DNA from: Candidatus Epulonipiscium sp.
GTDB taxonomy: Bacteria; Bacillota; Clostridia; Lachnospirales; Anaerotignaceae
Length of the DNA: 37,157 nucleotides
Reading direction: 5' to 3'
Assembly: GCA_012519385.1 (NCBI GenBank)
Contig: JAAYQI010000180.1
Span: 1-37,157, forward strand
Shown: positions 8,532 to 36,417 of the stretch, one piece after another
How the letters are laid out: every line of letters begins with the position of its first letter
Numbering within the stretch: position 1 is the first letter of the stretch
The notes under the pieces: model-generated
What the model saw: only the letters and a program-made list of their open reading frames with translations
Database searches by the model: none
What the model was told of the DNA's origin: nothing
Translations under genes and position numbers: made by a program

Positions 8532-9176
8532 TTATAATAGATTTTTTTTCTGAAACAAATCTTGCAATGTACTATAGATAGAATGATACAGCAACTCATA
8601 TCCTTTGGGACTTAGGTGAACCCCGTCAGACTGAAAATAGGGGACCATATTTTTTTGTCCCATAGAATTTAATACAGAAAAGAAATCAATGCAGATTATA
8701 TTTTTCTCATCAGCAATCTTCTTTACAATATTGCTATATTTTTCCACCCGATCTGTAGTGTTAAAAGGGAAAAAGTCTGTATCAATTACAGGCGGCGGAG
8801 TAATAAGAATCGGAATAGGTGAAGATTCTAGAGGGCTATGGGGTAACTGCACCGCATTTAATGTTTCTATTATGTGGAGTAAGTTATTTTCAAATTCATA
8901 TGGTGTAAGATACTGCTCCTCACATAAAGAGCTATCGTTAGAACCGAATAATATCAACACAATATGAGGTAAAAAGCACAATACATCTCCCATCAGTCGC
9001 CTTTTAGCATCTCTGGTAGTATCGCCGTTGATGCCGCTATTAATGACATTCCAGCGAAAGTCTTTATAATGAGCAGGCAGAGTATGTTTTAGTCGGGAAA
9101 GAAAGGTAACACTTTCCTCAACACCATACCCAAAGGTTAGGCTGTCTCCAAAACCTAAAATGGTAATTTCTTTCAT
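8532..9176 (-). CDS. SGNH/GDSL-family hydrolase
   Basis: ILGFGDSLTFGYGV (block I), NSGINGDT, FGSNDSS and SDGVHLSPKGY motifs. Confidence 0.92.
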   Translation of the reverse strand: MKEITILGFGDSLTFGYGVEESVTFLSRLKHTLPAHYKDFRWNVINSGINGDTTRDAKRRLMGDVLCFLPHIVLILFGSNDSSLCEEQYLTPYEFENNLLHIIETLNAVQLPHSPLESSPIPILITPPPVIDTDFFPFNTTDRVEKYSNIVKKIADEKNIICIDFFSVLNSMGQKNMVPYFQSDGVHLSPKGYELLYHSIYSTLQDLFQKKNLL

Positions 9177-9185
9177 AATAACCTC

Positions 9186-10466
9186 CTATAGTTGCAAAAG
9201 AGATTCATAAAAGGCAGGATAGGAGATATTGGCACACTGTGCATTTGTAATTATAGTTTCTCCATCTGCCATGATTCCCGCTACTGCCATTGCCATTGCA
9301 ATACGATGGTCATGATAGGTTTCTACAGTACATCCTGTGAGAGGGTTCCCGCCGTGAATCATCATTCCATCTTCTGTTTCTTCGATGGATGCACCAAATT
9401 TCTTTAACTCTGTAACAACAGTGTGGATACGGTTAGATTCCTTTACTTTCAATTCTGCTGCATCACGGATTACGGTAGTTCCCTTTGCAAAGCAAGCAGC
9501 AACAGCCAAAATGGGAATTTCATCAATGAGCCGTGGTATAAGAGAGCCTTCCACAACTGTACCTGATAGGCCAGAAGATCTTACTAGGATATCTCCTACG
9601 AGTTCACCACATACGGTTTGCTGGTTTTGAATGGTAATATCTGCCCCCATAGCCAAAAGAACATCAATAATACCAGAACGTGTAGGGTTGATACCTACAT
9701 TTTTTAATAGTATCTCTGCATTTTGACAGACACATCCTGCTACCATAAAGTATGCGGCTGAAGAAATATCTGCAGGAACATCAATGCGTTTTCCATAAAG
9801 CTGTGAAATAGGGCGGCAATGTATGGTAGTGCCATTGGTAGTAATATCCGCTCCCATATAGTTTAACATAATTTCTGTATGATTTCGTGTTGGCTCTGGC
9901 TCTATCACCACAGTTTCGCCTTCTGCATATAAGCCTGCCAGAAGCAAAGCACTTTTTACTTGAGCACTGGCAACAGGCAAGGTATATTCAATGGCTTTGA
10001 GTTTTTTGCCATGAATAGTGAAGGGGGCATGGAGATTATCTTCATCTGCACATTCAAAGGAAGCGCCCATTTGCCGTAAACAAACAGCAACACGATTCAT
10101 AGGGCGTTTTTGAATGGAAGCATCCCCTGTTAATTGACTGGTAAATGGCTGAGCAGCAAGCAAACCACTCATTAAGCGTAATGTTGTGCCGCTATTGCCT
10201 ACATCTAAAACTTCTGTAGGAGCAGAAAGGCCATGTAGCCCTTTTCCATGGACAAATACAGTCTCCCCTTGAAGCTCAATGGTAATACCCAGCTTGCGAA
10301 AGCAGGAAATGGTGGAAAGACAGTCCTCTCCTAATAAAAAGCCATGAACCTCTGTGATACCCTTTGCTATAGCTCCAAACATCACACTGCGGTGAGAGAT
10401 GGACTTATCTCCAGGAACGGTTACGCTACCGTGGAGAGAATTCTTTTGTTTGATTACAATATCCAA
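9186..10466 (-). CDS. aroA: 3-phosphoshikimate 1-carboxyvinyltransferase (EPSP synthase)
   Basis: GDKSISHRSVMFGAIAKG, GNSGTTLRLMSGLLA, DHRIAMAMAVAG motifs. Confidence 0.97.
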   Translation of the reverse strand: MDIVIKQKNSLHGSVTVPGDKSISHRSVMFGAIAKGITEVHGFLLGEDCLSTISCFRKLGITIELQGETVFVHGKGLHGLSAPTEVLDVGNSGTTLRLMSGLLAAQPFTSQLTGDASIQKRPMNRVAVCLRQMGASFECADEDNLHAPFTIHGKKLKAIEYTLPVASAQVKSALLLAGLYAEGETVVIEPEPTRNHTEIMLNYMGADITTNGTTIHCRPISQLYGKRIDVPADISSAAYFMVAGCVCQNAEILLKNVGINPTRSGIIDVLLAMGADITIQNQQTVCGELVGDILVRSSGLSGTVVEGSLIPRLIDEIPILAVAACFAKGTTVIRDAAELKVKESNRIHTVVTELKKFGASIEETEDGMMIHGGNPLTGCTVETYHDHRIAMAMAVAGIMADGETIITNAQCANISYPAFYESLLQL

Positions 10467-11572: not shown

Positions 11573-12585
11573 TCAAATTTCCTTCCTGCAAGTTGTATAA
11601 AGGGTTTTAGCTCTTCACATAATGCTTTAAAATCAGCTGGATTTAAAGATTGTGCTCCATCGGACAAAGCACAAGCAGGGTTTGGATGAACCTCTATCAT
11701 TAATCCATCTGCACCCACAGCTGCTGCTGCTTTACTTAAAGGAGCAATATACTCACGAACACCAGAAGCATGGCTAGGGTCAATAATAATTGGCAAATGT
11801 GTTTTACTGCGTAAGACGGGAACAGCACTGATATCCAGCGTATTTCTTGTACTGGTTTCAAAGGTGCGGATTCCTCTTTCGCATAAAATCACTTTTTCAT
11901 TTCCTTCGCTCATGATATATTCCGCTGCATTTAACCATTCATCAATGGTAGCAGATAATCCACGCTTTAACAGCACAGGGAGGTTGGTTTTGCCTGCTGC
12001 TTTTAGAAGCTCAAAGTTTTGCATATTTCTTGCACCAATTTGTAATAAATCTACATATTGAACAGCTGTCTCTAATGCACGAAGGCTTGTTATTTCTGTA
12101 ATAACAGGCATACCAGTTTGCTCCCGTATTTCTGCCATATATGTTAAGCCATCTTCCTCCAATCCCTGAAAGGAGTAGGGGGAGGTACGAGGTTTATAAG
12201 CACCGCCTCTTAAAATCTGGGCACCTGCATTTTTTGCAGCCCAAGCAGATTCCAGCAGTTGCTCTTTGCTTTCAATGGCGCAGGGGCCAGCCATAATGGT
12301 AAAGTTTCCGCCGCCGATTTTAACACCACGTACATCAATGGTTGTAGGCTCAGGATGGAATTTTATATTTGCAATTTTATAAGATTCACTAATGGGAACC
12401 AAACGTTCCACACCTGGCATAAGCTGCGGATTTTTTTCTAAAAATTTGCTTTTATCTCCGACAACACCAATGATAGTGATGGATTCCCCTCTAGAGAGGT
12501 GGGCATTTAAACCCAATTCATAAAGGGTATTCACGATACCTTGGATATGTTCTTCAGTTGCGTTGGGTTGCATTACTACAATCAT
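11569..12585 (-). CDS. aroF: 3-deoxy-7-phosphoheptulonate synthase
   Basis: GPCAIESKEQLL, RGGAYKPRTSPYSFQGL, DPSHASG motifs; N-terminal ferredoxin-like regulatory domain. Confidence 0.96.
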   Translation of the reverse strand: MIVVMQPNATEEHIQGIVNTLYELGLNAHLSRGESITIIGVVGDKSKFLEKNPQLMPGVERLVPISESYKIANIKFHPEPTTIDVRGVKIGGGNFTIMAGPCAIESKEQLLESAWAAKNAGAQILRGGAYKPRTSPYSFQGLEEDGLTYMAEIREQTGMPVITEITSLRALETAVQYVDLLQIGARNMQNFELLKAAGKTNLPVLLKRGLSATIDEWLNAAEYIMSEGNEKVILCERGIRTFETSTRNTLDISAVPVLRSKTHLPIIIDPSHASGVREYIAPLSKAAAAVGADGLMIEVHPNPACALSDGAQSLNPADFKALCEELKPFIQLAGRKFE

Positions 12586-26409: not shown

Positions 26410-26519
26410 AAAGGGGAAAGACTGATAGAATTGGCTTATGTTGGATTATAAGGTAACATATTTTCCTTTATGCAAGGAATATATTAGAATAGAATACTAT
26501 TAGAATAAGGAGAAGAGAT

Positions 26520-27095
26520 ATGCAATTATTTGGAAAAAAGATTTTTTCTAGAAAAAGGATTTTGTATGCTATAGGAGTTCTTTTACTTGCAGGCATTGCC
26601 GTAACATTTGTTGCACCTGCGGCAAAAACCGTATTTCAAGTACATATTGCCAAGGCAGAACGGAAGTTGCCTATCTATTGTGTAGATACGCCAGAGCCGA
26701 AAGTAGCAATTAGCTTTGATGCAGCATGGGGAGCAGACGACACAGATGAATTATTAAGGATACTAGAGGAAAATGGTGTTAAAACCACTTTTTTTATGTG
26801 TGGATATTGGGTGGATGATTATCCTGAGGAGGTTAAAAAGATTGCAGAAGCAGGCCATGATTTAGGCAATCATTCTGCTACGCATCCTCATATGAGCCAG
26901 CTTTCCAAAGAGCAGATAAAAAAGGAATTGCTAGATACTCATAAAAAGGTATATGACCTTACGGGGTATGAAATGGATTTATTTAGACCGCCTTTTGGCG
27001 AATATGATAATAAGGTGATTGAAACTGCACGGGAAAATAACTATCATATAATTCAATGGGATGTTGATAGTCTAGAAACAAAAATAAACCCTTGA
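26520..27095 (+). pseudogene. Polysaccharide deacetylase (PdaB-like), C-terminus disrupted by the integrated element
   Basis: NodB-fold motifs VAISFDAAWG, GHDLGNHSATHPHMSQL, LFRPPFGEYDN, IIQWDVDSL are present. The protein stops (ETKINP*) just after WDVDSL, where family members continue (e.g. DSxDW...) to the LLH-type motif. Abuts the recombinase gene. Confidence 0.88.
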
Positions 27096-27118
27096 GTTTA
27101 TGCTATTTCCAGACTATC
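27066..27118. other. Putative hybrid attachment site (left att junction)
   Basis: Dyad: GATAGTCTAGAAA...TTTCCAGACTATC (12/13) outer arms; ATAAACCC-TT-GAGTTTAT (7/8) inner arms. Confidence 0.5.
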
Positions 27119-28590
27119 TCGATTACTTGGTCAGATAGAATTACTTTATCTATCATCAGCTTTGCAAGATACTTTTTATCCTCAAACGAAAGGTTGTAAT
27201 AATCAAAATCGGGTAAAAAAGCTTTCTCTTTGTTTGCTTTGATTTCCGCAGAATGCATATTGATTAAGGCTAATTTTTCCTCATCAAGTTCTTTAATTCT
27301 TTTATTGATATAAGCCATGCTTGCCCCAGTGGCATCTTCAAGGCTGCTAATCAGATTATTGATTTTAACATCAATTTCCGCTATTTTCTTATCGTATTCT
27401 AATGTTTTAACCTTTGCTTCCTGAGGCGCAGCAACTGCATACTTTCTCTTTTCTTCAACTCTAGTTAAGATTTCTTTCTCTACGTATTCCTCCACATCTG
27501 CAACTCTATGTGTCTGTTTAAGGTCACACGCCTTATGCAGATACCTTCCACTGCAAGCAAAATACTTTATCTCGCCATCTTTTGTTACACCGTTCCGAAC
27601 AGAAAAAGAATACCCACAGTTTCCGCATTTAACAAAGCCTGTGAGCCAACTATGTTTACCTTTATGCAAGTTTTTAATCTGCTTATTTTCGTTTAATTTT
27701 TGTTGGCAATAAAGAAAAGTATCACTATCAATGATGCCATTATGATTAGCAATAGCAAGTAGGTGGTCTGTAACGTCTGAATATTTTCTTGTGTTTGCAC
27801 TTCTTTTTCCAACCAATACACAAGCCTTTTTGCCATCAAATTCTTCTGGCTCATTTGCTATAATAGCTTTTTTGCTTTTATAGTAATTGTAAATGCTTAT
27901 ATCTGCCTTCACATAGGTAGGGGATTTCAAAAGTGTTGCTAGTTTCACATTATCCCAATTCTTATTTGAAGTAGTTTTTATATTATGCTCAATTAAATAT
28001 CTTTGCACGTCTGCTAGTGATGTATTGGGGGAACTATAAAGCTCAAATATTTTACGCACATTCTCAATATCATCATTTTCTTTGTAGACTGACATTTTTG
28101 TACCGTTTACTACTTGCCTAACGATATCGTAGCCATAGGGTGCAGGGCCACCGCCTAATGCTCCTTTTTTTACCCTCGCATAGTAATTATCTCTTACACG
28201 TTCTGCAATGGTTTCTCTTTCTAACTGAGCAAAAACAATGATAATATAAAGCATAGCTTTACCCATAGGTGAAGAGGTATCAAATTTTTCTGTGGCAGAT
28301 ACGAAAGCTATCTTTTTTTCCTCAAGGGTATTTATAAAGTCGGCAAAGTCTACGATAGATCTGCTGATACGGTCAAGACGATATACAACTACCTTTGACA
28401 CATCCTCTGTTTCCAAATCCTCCATCATTTGTTCAAAAGCAGGGCGGTTTGTATTTTTACCACTATAGCCTTTATCTTGATAAACTTTGAAATCTTCCCC
28501 GTAAATTTCTCTTTTGGCATATTCAATTTGTGTTTCTATGGATATGCTATCTTTTTTATCAATAGATTGACGTGCGTATATGTAAATCAT
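27103..28590 (-). CDS. Large serine recombinase (site-specific integrase)
   Basis: Resolvase domain with catalytic Ser (IYARQSIDKKDSISIETQ), YRLDRISRS, LERETIAERV, recombinase domain, Cys zinc ribbon (CGNCGYSF...C...C), coiled coil. Full length, with SD AAGGAGG. Confidence 0.96.
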   Translation of the reverse strand: MIYIYARQSIDKKDSISIETQIEYAKREIYGEDFKVYQDKGYSGKNTNRPAFEQMMEDLETEDVSKVVVYRLDRISRSIVDFADFINTLEEKKIAFVSATEKFDTSSPMGKAMLYIIIVFAQLERETIAERVRDNYYARVKKGALGGGPAPYGYDIVRQVVNGTKMSVYKENDDIENVRKIFELYSSPNTSLADVQRYLIEHNIKTTSNKNWDNVKLATLLKSPTYVKADISIYNYYKSKKAIIANEPEEFDGKKACVLVGKRSANTRKYSDVTDHLLAIANHNGIIDSDTFLYCQQKLNENKQIKNLHKGKHSWLTGFVKCGNCGYSFSVRNGVTKDGEIKYFACSGRYLHKACDLKQTHRVADVEEYVEKEILTRVEEKRKYAVAAPQEAKVKTLEYDKKIAEIDVKINNLISSLEDATGASMAYINKRIKELDEEKLALINMHSAEIKANKEKAFLPDFDYYNLSFEDKKYLAKLMIDKVILSDQVIEIVWK

Positions 28591-28673: not shown

Positions 28674-29000
28674 TTATTTTACTTTCTTCAGATGATTAAT
28701 ATCGTAACTATGCAGCTTGGTAACACCTTCTACAACATCGGTTTTTAGTTTAAGATATTCCACATCATCTTTAATGGCATCCAACTGTTGCAGTTTATCC
28801 GCATTTTGCATATGACCTTCCACAAGCAGCTGAATATTCTTGTTGGTTTCATTTTCGAGGGTCATTTTGATTTCCTTTACTTCCATTTTTAATTCTTTTA
28901 TTTCTTGGGTCAGTCTGGAATCTATGGTATCCATTTTGCCACTTAAAACATCGAACATATCTTTCATAGCGGATAATAATTCTTTTGATTCTTCTGTCAT
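28674..29000 (-). CDS. Small coiled-coil element protein, unknown function
   Basis: 108-aa heptad-rich protein with AATCATGGAGGT SD, directly upstream of the recombinase on the same strand. Confidence 0.75.
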   Translation of the reverse strand: MTEESKELLSAMKDMFDVLSGKMDTIDSRLTQEIKELKMEVKEIKMTLENETNKNIQLLVEGHMQNADKLQQLDAIKDDVEYLKLKTDVVEGVTKLHSYDINHLKKVK

Positions 29001-29838: not shown

Positions 29839-30414
29839 TTATTTTAAAAGACTAGGTAATATGTATAAATCCTTTACATAATCTCCAAATGAAGTTGCAG
29901 AAATAGTTCCATCAGCAACCTTATCAATTAAATCTTTATCCATTGTAAAACTTATTACCTTAGATTCTTCACCGTTTGTCATATCAGCAACAGCCCAATA
30001 CTGTATTTCATTATAAGCGTCACCACCACCAGTTCGCACATAATCCTCCATGTTTAAATAATTTTGTTTGATGGTTAAGTTATTTGTTCCAGATGGGCTT
30101 ATCTTTGCTTTGATAACAACTGTTCCTGTATCAGGGTTTGAATATAAAGATACTAATTCTCCATGTTTTAATTCCCAAGAATCTGTGGTGTTTTCTTCTT
30201 CAGTATCATCCGTAGTATTATTATCTTCATCTTTTGAGGTTTCTGAAGAAGTAATATCTGAATCTGTGCTTATTTCTTCTGTTTTTGATGTAGCTTTACT
30301 AGAGTCTTTTTTTGAATCGGATTTAGGACTACAGAAGCTAAAAATGATAATAACCCATAATACTAGAACTAAAAATTGCAGTTTTTTCGGTGCTTGTTTT
30401 TCTTTTTTTGCCAT
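29839..30414 (-). CDS. Secreted/membrane-anchored hypothetical protein with Ser/Thr/Glu/Asp-rich linker
   Basis: N-terminal TM (LQFLVLVLWVIIIFSFCSPKS), low-complexity linker, C-terminal domain; SD GGAGG upstream. Confidence 0.75.
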   Translation of the reverse strand: MAKKEKQAPKKLQFLVLVLWVIIIFSFCSPKSDSKKDSSKATSKTEEISTDSDITSSETSKDEDNNTTDDTEEENTTDSWELKHGELVSLYSNPDTGTVVIKAKISPSGTNNLTIKQNYLNMEDYVRTGGGDAYNEIQYWAVADMTNGEESKVISFTMDKDLIDKVADGTISATSFGDYVKDLYILPSLLK

Positions 30415-30503: not shown

Positions 30504-30548
30504 AAAAAAAGCAGCAAAGCAATTTATATTGTCAATGCTGCTTTTTTT
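30504..30548. terminator. Terminator after the XRE repressor gene
   Basis: AAAAAAAGCAGCA ... TGCTGCTTTTTTT. Confidence 0.75.
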
Positions 30549-31081
30549 TATATATCCATATCATCAGAATCATCTTTTAAGGCATCTTCTTTGGCAGCCT
30601 TGATTAGGGCATCCTTATCCACAGTAGTTTCTATTAAGCCGCCTCTGCCTGTTAATTTTAAAGTATATAAATTGCTTTGTGTATCTTCTTTCTGTTGGCT
30701 TGCATGAGATTGTTTCATAGCATAATTTTGTGCCACGTCTTTTAGATAATTTGACAATACTTTCATATCTTCCAAATCCATTTTTACCAGAGTCTCCAAA
30801 CAGGATTTTACAAAATCATCTATTTGATATTGTTCTGCTAGCTTATCAATGAGGGATTTCTCATCTTTCCGAAACATTTCCCCTGTGCCGTTACAAAGCC
30901 ATTCTTCATTTACATTAAACTTTTCGCAAATATCAATTATAGTACGTCTGGATAAATTTCTCTTTCCGTTTTCTATTAAAGAAACTGAATTTCTTTGAAG
31001 ATTTAATTTATTAGCAAATTCATTTTGACTTAAATCTAATGCTTCTCTTAATTCTTTAAGACGATTATTCACTTTTCGCAC
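30548..31081 (-). CDS. XRE/CI-like phage repressor
   Basis: RLKELREALDLSQNEFANKLNLQRNSVSLIENGKRNLSRRTIIDICEKFNVNEEWLCNGTGEMF. Confidence 0.92.
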   Translation of the reverse strand: MRKVNNRLKELREALDLSQNEFANKLNLQRNSVSLIENGKRNLSRRTIIDICEKFNVNEEWLCNGTGEMFRKDEKSLIDKLAEQYQIDDFVKSCLETLVKMDLEDMKVLSNYLKDVAQNYAMKQSHASQQKEDTQSNLYTLKLTGRGGLIETTVDKDALIKAAKEDALKDDSDDMDI

Positions 31082-32976: not shown

Positions 32977-33936
32977 ATGTTTTATGAGTTGAAACAGTCA
33001 GATATCTTTGACTTTGCTAATACATTTCAGACACAAAAAAAGCAAAAAGGGGATGAGCTCTTTTTTGAGCGTTGCCCATACTGCAATGGTGGAAATCACG
33101 ATAAAAACACTTTTAGCATTAATCTGGTCAATGGCACTTTTAAATGCTTTCGTGCTTCCTGCGATAAACAGGGGCATTTTGTGGAGCTTGCCAGAGACTT
33201 TCAATTTCCTTTGGATTTTGGAGAGATAAAGGAATACCGCCAACTGCCTCAGAAGCCTATTATCACAAGGCCAAAAGCGATTGAATACTTAAAAAGCCGT
33301 GGCATCAGTGAGCAAATTGCAAAAAAGTATGGAATTACTACCCGTACCGATAACGATAATATTTTGGTATTCCCTTTCCATGATGAAAACAATATCCGTC
33401 AATTCATCAAATATCGACATATAAAGTACAACGGAAATGGCAACAAGGAATGGTGCGAAAAAGATACAAAGCCTATTCTTTTTGGTATGGCACAATGCGA
33501 AAATTTTGATACCCTTGTCATTACCGAAGGGCAAATAGATAGTTTAACGGTTGCGGAATGCGGTATCCCTAATGCCGTATCCGTACCTACAGGGGCGAAT
33601 GGATTTACCTGGTACCGCCATGTGAGAGAATGGATAGATAAGTTTCAAGAAGTGATTGTATTTGGAGACTGCGAAAAAGGGAAAATCACATTGGTGGAAG
33701 AACTGCAAAACAGACTAACGCAAAAAGTGAAAGTTGTGCAGATGCAGGACTACTTAGGTGAAAAGGATGCCAATGCAATACTGCAAAAGTACGGCAAGCA
33801 GGCTGTTATAAAAGCAGTGCAGAATGCAAAGATACCTGTGATAAAAAATATTAAGGAACTGGCAGAGGTAAAAGCTATAGATATTAATCTTTTGCCTAAA
33901 ATCAAAACCAACATCAAGGAAATTGACCGATTATAG
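32977..33936 (+). pseudogene. Phage primase (zinc-binding + TOPRIM) truncated before the helicase domain
   Basis: CPYCNGGNHDKNTFSINLVNGTFKCFRASCDKQGHF zinc finger, LVITEGQIDSLTVAECG TOPRIM, ends at INLLPKIKTNIKEIDRL*, where DnaB-like helicase domains usually begin (EIDRLxGG). Confidence 0.8.
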
Positions 33937-34396
33937 AGATTTGAATCAGCTAAACTGGCTATATAAAAAGCTGGCTTTACACGAAGTACAACGAGATGAA
34001 ATAATAAACGATATGAACCAATCCAATATATCTTTTGAGGATACTATGAAAAGTGTATCCTATGACAAACCCATAGTGCAAACAAGTGGCGTATGTGGCC
34101 TTGAGAAAATAATTGATTTTGAATATGAAAAATTGCAAAAGGAACTAGATAGTATCAATAAAAAAATTGCTGATACTAAAACTGATATACGGCTTTTGGA
34201 AGAAAAGACAGCTAAGTTAAGCCATTTTATTAAATTACTAAGTGAAGAAGCTCAAATGTTTTTGGAGTTGTACTACCATAAGAAAAAGAAATCATATGTT
34301 GCTATTGGGTTGGAACTTAATGTGTCTCATAGTACGGTAGGAAGATTAAAAAAGGAAATTTTGCAACAGGTAGAATTATTTTTAAGTTATAGTTGA
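33923..34396 (+). CDS. ArpU/sigma-like phage transcriptional regulator
   Basis: C-terminal HTH LSEEAQMFLELYYHKKKKSYVAIGLELNVSHSTVGRLKKEILQQVELFL; TTG start overlaps the truncated primase. Confidence 0.72.
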   Translation: MTDYRDLNQLNWLYKKLALHEVQRDEIINDMNQSNISFEDTMKSVSYDKPIVQTSGVCGLEKIIDFEYEKLQKELDSINKKIADTKTDIRLLEEKTAKLSHFIKLLSEEAQMFLELYYHKKKKSYVAIGLELNVSHSTVGRLKKEILQQVELFLSYS

Positions 34397-35865: not shown

Positions 35866-36417
35866 ATGATTAAACTAAAAGATGGTGGTTTATTATCTAT
35901 TCTCCCGCCTAACTTTGCTACAGACGTAGAGATACAATGCTTTTGCTATGCCATTGACCGTCAAATACAGAAATTAATAGCTGCGGCAGATAAAATATCC
36001 ATATTCTATACAAAGAAATGGGATGATAGGCTCTGCGATTATTTGGCAATGGAATTAAGGACACCTTTTTATTCAGAGGATATGGCATTAGAAACGAAAA
36101 GAGAATTGATTGGAAAGAGTCTCTTTTGGTATGCAAAGCTAGGGACGGCCGATGCAGTGAAAGAAATTATTGAAACAGTGCTAGGCTATGCGGAAATTGA
36201 AGAAGAAACAAGCGGGCCGTATACTTTTACGGTATGCACAACGGATGCCACCATTACAGGAGAAAAGGCAACGGAGTTTGCACGACAAATAGAAGGAATC
36301 AAAAACGTTCGCAGTGACTTTCTGGGAATACAAGTTTTATTGACAGAGAATATGAATGTTTACATAGGCTTTGCAGGACACAGTGGCAGCAGAGAAGAAT
36401 TAAGTATGGTGTATTAA
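35866..36417 (+). CDS. Phage tail protein I (baseplate) family
   Basis: LLSILPPNFATDVEIQCFCYAIDRQIQKL...DDRLCDYLAMELRTPFYSEDMALETKRELIGKSLFWYAKLGTADAVKEIIETVLGYAEIEE. Confidence 0.85.
   Translation: MIKLKDGGLLSILPPNFATDVEIQCFCYAIDRQIQKLIAAADKISIFYTKKWDDRLCDYLAMELRTPFYSEDMALETKRELIGKSLFWYAKLGTADAVKEIIETVLGYAEIEEETSGPYTFTVCTTDATITGEKATEFARQIEGIKNVRSDFLGIQVLLTENMNVYIGFAGHSGSREELSMVY

Follow-up and report, generated by a model that had tools for sequence, protein, structure and literature searches.

A recombinase-bearing element inside pdaB in a contig of Candidatus Epulonipiscium, with apparent relatives of skin at the same site across the family

Described intervening elements and the pdaB locus

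Few sporulation genes are known to carry excisable elements that split them, and several of these cases come from single strains. The skin element interrupts sigK in B. subtilis and C. difficile, SP-beta interrupts spsM in B. subtilis and gin interrupts gerE in B. cereus ATCC10987; these three serve here as the analogy for excision (PMC5025042, PMC4191935, PMC5595907). The yin element lies in yabG of C. botulinum V73 (PMC10747680), and vfbin lies in spoVFB of B. weihenstephanensis according to a citation in the same paper, which is our only source for it.

We analyzed a window of 37,157 nucleotides (the whole stretch of DNA considered here) in which the spore deacetylase gene pdaB is cut by an element of this general kind. 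As in skin, a large serine recombinase is encoded within a sporulation gene whose frame would be restored on excision. Unlike for skin, the target is pdaB, and sigK of the same genome is intact (C79:9466-10125), as is spoIVA; hence, this is not skin proper. The locus resembles SP-beta (PMC4191935) in being a prophage in a spore-envelope gene with a serine recombinase for its excision, but the gene and attB are different, the window element is decayed and no SprB-like directionality factor was found. The non-phage island gin has counterparts among the pdaB elements of relatives (G002 and the trio G012, G025 and G079); however, it carries three recombinase genes and a 9-bp shared overlap (PMC5595907), whereas a single recombinase was found in each pdaB element and the core is 2 bp long. 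Like the pdaB element, yin is prophage-like and has its recombinase beside the 5′ part of the gene, yet it was reported as unique to one strain (PMC10747680), whereas the pdaB site is occupied in 26/58 genomes of the family and also outside it, and pdaB has a second such site. As far as that source goes, vfbin is also prophage-like, in a different gene.

No description of an element in pdaB was found in the open-access literature (subscription papers and outside preprints were not covered), and pdaB is not mentioned in the papers on the elements in gerE, yabG and spsM. The first-pass annotation, made from the letters alone, had likewise known of no described example at this locus. What is new relative to the known systems is the target gene, the two sites in one gene and the unusual prevalence, and the element looks like an undescribed recurrent relative of skin.

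The severed gene and the element in the window

The window is the entire contig C47 of a MAG from Anaerotignaceae (274 contigs, 83% complete); the assignment to this family follows named matches such as Anaerotignum and Chakrabartyella. Its ORF at 26520-27095 encodes 191 residues with the C terminus IIQWDVDSLETKINP and was matched by Polysacc_deac_1 (Pfam, E=8e-37) and by the PdaB model TIGR02764. The latter match, 150 bits against a curated cut-off of 237, covered positions 1-132 of 191 only; the last third is missing, and a score below the cut-off is what a truncated gene should give. Judged by its sequence, this ORF is a PdaB ortholog severed within conserved codons.

The first-pass annotation had reported an ORF ending six residues after IIQWDVDSL, before the C-terminal part, and a convergent, full-length large serine recombinase eight bases past its stop. 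Both observations were borne out. The recombinase gene ends at 27103, the eighth base beyond the stop at 27095, and the predicted protein is a full-length large serine recombinase with its catalytic Ser and Arg residues, Ser9, Arg71 and Arg74 being invariant among eight relatives. The annotation had also placed the cut inside a conserved stretch. Conserved codons are indeed severed, but the crossover maps to a GA dinucleotide according to 21 relatives; therefore, the residues SLETKINP after QWDVD are encoded by element DNA, and the SL of IIQWDVDSL is conserved in appearance only. The core lies 36 nt beyond the recombinase. The window has the P′ arm only, and this arm by itself would also be compatible with a crossover a few bases further on; in the complete elements of relatives, the arms are inverted repeats.

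Table 1. Features at the pdaB locus and in the interrupting element
Feature	Coordinates	Strand	Remarks
Possible sigma-E-like promoter of pdaB, ACATATTT-N14-AATATATT	26456..26485	+	Weak; top-ranking site ahead of pdaB (shuffle rank 0.055)
5′ part of pdaB to the crossover	26520..27067	+	ORF continues to 27095 within element DNA
GA crossover core of attL	27066..27067	+	Second Asp codon of QWDVD; GA common to both ends in 21/21 relatives
P′ arm of attL, TAGTCTAGAAACAAAAATAAAC	27068..27089	+	At most 17/22 positions common with other elements; near-identical arm in G021
Large serine recombinase of the pdaB site-B group	27103..28590	-	495 aa; convergent with pdaB; Resolvase, Recombinase and Zn-ribbon domains
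Coiled protein of 108 aa, function unknown	28674..29000	-	Directly upstream of the recombinase
Phage protein of unknown function	29839..30414	-	phrog_28892
Phage-type repressor	30548..31081	-	
Truncated phage primase/helicase	32977..33936	+	phrog_239; match confined to positions 18-320 of 801
Phage sigma-like late regulator	33923..34396	+	phrog_36
Phage tail protein (Tail_P2_I)	35866..36417	+	
Phage tail fibre, severed by the contig end	36477..37157	+	Element extends past the window

The genes pass from the sigma-like regulator straight to the tail genes, so the head genes have likely been lost, which suggests a decayed prophage. The label of prophage remnant given in the first-pass annotation fits the window. 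It does not hold in general, because among relatives the elements extend from full prophages at one extreme to non-phage islands at the other. The contig end at 37157 falls within the element. The MAG is fragmented and the window takes up one entire contig, so neither the right end of the element nor the remaining 3′ sequence of pdaB has been assembled for this genome. A search of the MAG for that 3′ part yielded only a paralog (E=0.03), and none was found in IMG/VR.

Interruption of pdaB in relatives

We scored pdaB in 58 genomes of the family. The gene was interrupted at the same codon as in the window, hereafter site B, in 26 genomes and was uninterrupted in 29; G027, G029 and G069 could not be scored. 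For 22 of these 26 genomes, the sequence was read at both ends of the cut; for G000, G074, G021 and G077, it was read at one end only. The cut at site B was also present, with both ends read, in other families of the order (G058 and G137). Short ORFs had suggested interruptions in G050 and G141, which proved to be contig breaks, and G175 has no interruption at site B.

The two halves of pdaB were found in order, on one contig and one strand, in 13 family genomes. Eleven of these elements were delimited base by base, with sizes of 2.5, 2.6, 2.8, 10.1, 12.6, 15.5 (three elements), 27.2, 39.3 and 46.1 kb; the other two measure about 35 and 38 kb from match coordinates. A scripted comparison found GA at both ends in all 21 genomes processed, and a join at this GA yields QWD[V/I]DSLDW in frame. 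Junctions inspected by eye in G017, G058 and G137 were consistent with joining at GA. The att arms at site B are inverted repeats, with matches at 315 of 462 positions compared with 174 (sd 8.4) in shuffled arms. Relatives thus have a 2-bp crossover core with inverted-repeat arms, as for the att sites of large serine integrases. An unscarred site is available in the near relative G062, where at least 57 of the 60 bases surrounding the junction are identical to those of the G061 gene once rejoined (89.6% identity over a wider stretch). Excision in the relatives would rebuild a single in-frame pdaB without a scar in 21/21 cases, as predicted from the junctions; the right end is missing for the genome of the window itself.

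The first-pass annotation had proposed a skin-like switch in a spore deacetylase gene. Its conditions were a missing 3′ fragment at the far end of the element, a rejoined gene in frame, and relatives whose intact gene does not end at the same residue. The first two were met in the relatives by the data above, and the third by intact orthologs, which continue through SLDWKE...ILFHND. The proposal is supported through these relatives; neither the right end in its own genome nor excision in the mother cell has been shown.

A second site of interruption, site A, lies within the SFDAAWGADD motif in G033, G010, G076, G017 and G046, G076 being a complete genome. When the halves are joined inside TGGG, the motif is recovered in frame. 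The G033 and G010 recombinases are distant from the site-B set, with 25-30% identity over parts of their length. Both cuts are present in at least two genomes, G010 and G017. They may also coexist in G009 and G021, since the 5′ parts of pdaB were not found there.

Other irregularities of pdaB were observed. An in-frame TAG replaces the Trp of SFDAAWGADD, motif 1 of pdaB, in two species of one genus (L018 from G001 and L020 from G028). In L138 (G048; 1364-1609, 8744-9538 and 11972-12232), an intact pdaB copy is flanked by two broken pieces of the gene, and no such recombinase was found between them. On contig C9 of G146, a fragment lies 4.9 kb from an intact copy, and G033 has an additional decayed 3′ fragment with two stops (C157:34429-34605) about 8 kb beyond the gene.

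Elements, recombinases and selection on pdaB

The content of the elements is diverse. G035, a single-contig genome, has a 46-kb element that looks like a full prophage and includes terminase and portal genes, and the elements of G005 and G016 have phage-like gene sets that were not profiled. The element of G012 encodes an RND pump, a peptidase and transporters for chromate and cobalt, and none of its profiled genes is a phage gene; that of G002 (L041 3259-10633) is a metabolic island with an amino-acid ABC transporter, Fe-ADH, PucR and a class-III aminotransferase. The elements of G008, G022 and G031 contain a recombinase, an endolysin-like Amidase_3 gene and little else, and the smallest, of 2.5-2.8 kb, are recombinase-plus-endolysin remnants. 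SP-beta has been described along a course from active prophage to defective remnant (PMC4191935), and the pdaB series suggests the same course. A comparison of small ORFs across elements gave no family-wide candidate for a directionality factor; one ORF of 50-58 aa was common to the small elements of G008 and G022 only.

The Amidase_3 gene of the smallest site-B elements (L049 2832-3638, L043 2904-3767 and the G031 element) is under purifying selection, with pN 0.09 against pS 0.54 in the closest pair. It may have a role of its own.

Counting the window recombinase itself, its 17 best matches in the family are all located close to a pdaB half, at either the left or the right end of an element. 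Among the lower-ranking matches listed (at most 45% identity), 7 adjoin pdaB and 15 lie elsewhere. The site-B label needs two changes on the recombinase tree compared with 8.9 in shuffles. The exception is G058, from another family, which clusters with recombinases not adjoining pdaB; given this grouping, a strict single origin of the site-B recombinases is unsupported.

Phage contigs of IMG/VR encode relatives of the recombinase with up to 59% identity in an alignment-based search, which did better than a single-sequence search (22-25% identity only). Five phage loci, of which L217 and L230 look like the same phage, have a palindrome centred on GA or TC located 32-66 nt beyond the recombinase. 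Such palindromes occurred at 5 of 121 near positions of the phage contigs and at none of 13,263 elsewhere. These palindromes may represent the attP expected of a circular form, with the reservation that they belong to contigs with related recombinases and not to the window element.

We compared pN/pS ratios between split and intact genes. Within genera, the 5′ and 3′ parts of split pdaB gave 0.131 and 0.132. Across the family, split genes gave 0.20 and 0.16, and the corresponding parts of intact genes 0.17 and 0.16. By this measure, both split halves are under purifying selection like that of intact genes. The 15.5-kb elements of G012, G025 and G079 and their flanks align collinearly over about 17 kb with 86-87% identity. 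The insertion therefore probably predates these three species. Their 3′ parts nevertheless remain conserved (pN 0.005-0.021 versus pS 0.53-0.64), which is hard to explain unless pdaB is regularly reassembled.

This conservation bears on the idea that pdaB is an ordinary integration hotspot, merely a conserved attB in a dispensable gene that insertion inactivates, with excision only at ordinary prophage induction and no sporulation timing. The highly varied content of the elements agrees with it. So does the SpoIVA tree, where at least 12-14 changes of the interrupted state indicate frequent gain and loss of elements, and G029 has no pdaB ortholog although its genome is rated 100% complete and has spoIVA. 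However, a dead gene should decay, and the halves of pdaB have not, even in the insertion common to several species; in addition, the 2.5-2.8-kb remnants have retained little besides recombinase and endolysin. We consider this explanation unlikely, without being able to discard it. It is very improbable that the N-terminal and 3′ ORFs are each translated and cooperate without DNA excision: both parts are open and conserved, but the 3′ parts begin within a motif, the codons upstream of them differ among genomes, and the conserved att arms and adjacent recombinase would need another explanation. An assembly or binning artefact, which might be suspected in a MAG of 274 contigs, is refuted for practical purposes by the recurrence of the junction in many independent assemblies, including the single contig of G035, and by site A in complete G076.

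We thus favor, with good confidence, the reading that a decayed prophage, which its own recombinase inserted at GA in pdaB, forms a gene-intervening element here and that the window holds the left end of it; timed excision in the mother cell is inferred. The large serine recombinase would insert the element at the 2-bp GA crossover within the codons of QWDVD|SLDW. During sporulation, the recombinase and an element-encoded directionality factor would excise it in the terminal mother cell and rebuild pdaB there, and the forespore chromosome would keep the element, as for skin and SP-beta. This timing rests on the analogy with skin, SP-beta and gin, and no excision has been observed. It remains an inference because neither a directionality factor nor a significant sigma-E promoter was found: several relatives have a sigma-E-like site at a comparable distance upstream of pdaB, and the scan for the family overall did not exceed shuffles. 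The model fits the status of pdaB as a mother-cell gene in B. subtilis, where ybaN (pdaB) has been listed among the sigma-E genes (PMC3416734) and SpoIIID binds the DNA upstream of it (PMC517825).

It may be that, in Lachnospirales, pdaB serves as a long-lasting DNA switch for spore-wall formation with more than one site, acted on by two unrelated recombinase lineages at two catalytic motifs, sometimes both at once, with elements domesticated from full prophages to 2.5-kb recombinase-plus-endolysin units kept for timed reconstitution. We offer this wider proposal tentatively and would not yet rely on it. Close to half of the genomes of a gut family have the gene split. Two sites are used, the elements are at stages from full prophage to 2.5-kb remnant, and near relatives have empty sites. 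This prevalence, the element stages and the empty sites make possible a direct test between tolerated parasites and retained switches. The elements are also a source of serine integrases whose att sites are matched to them, and in many gut spore-formers pdaB can be missed or annotated as broken.

Splits of sigK are far rarer in the family, with about three clear cases against the 26 of pdaB. They were seen in G007 (C12:224282-244455), G015 (C83:22599-25849) and G020 (C5 and C15), all three with intact pdaB. A serine recombinase lies between the sigK halves of G007, which is likely a skin element. Partial copies of spoIVA were found 5-10 kb from full ones in three genomes of one genus (G071:C1:2270734-2277675, G074:C71:44965-56785 and G070:C7:23548-31953).
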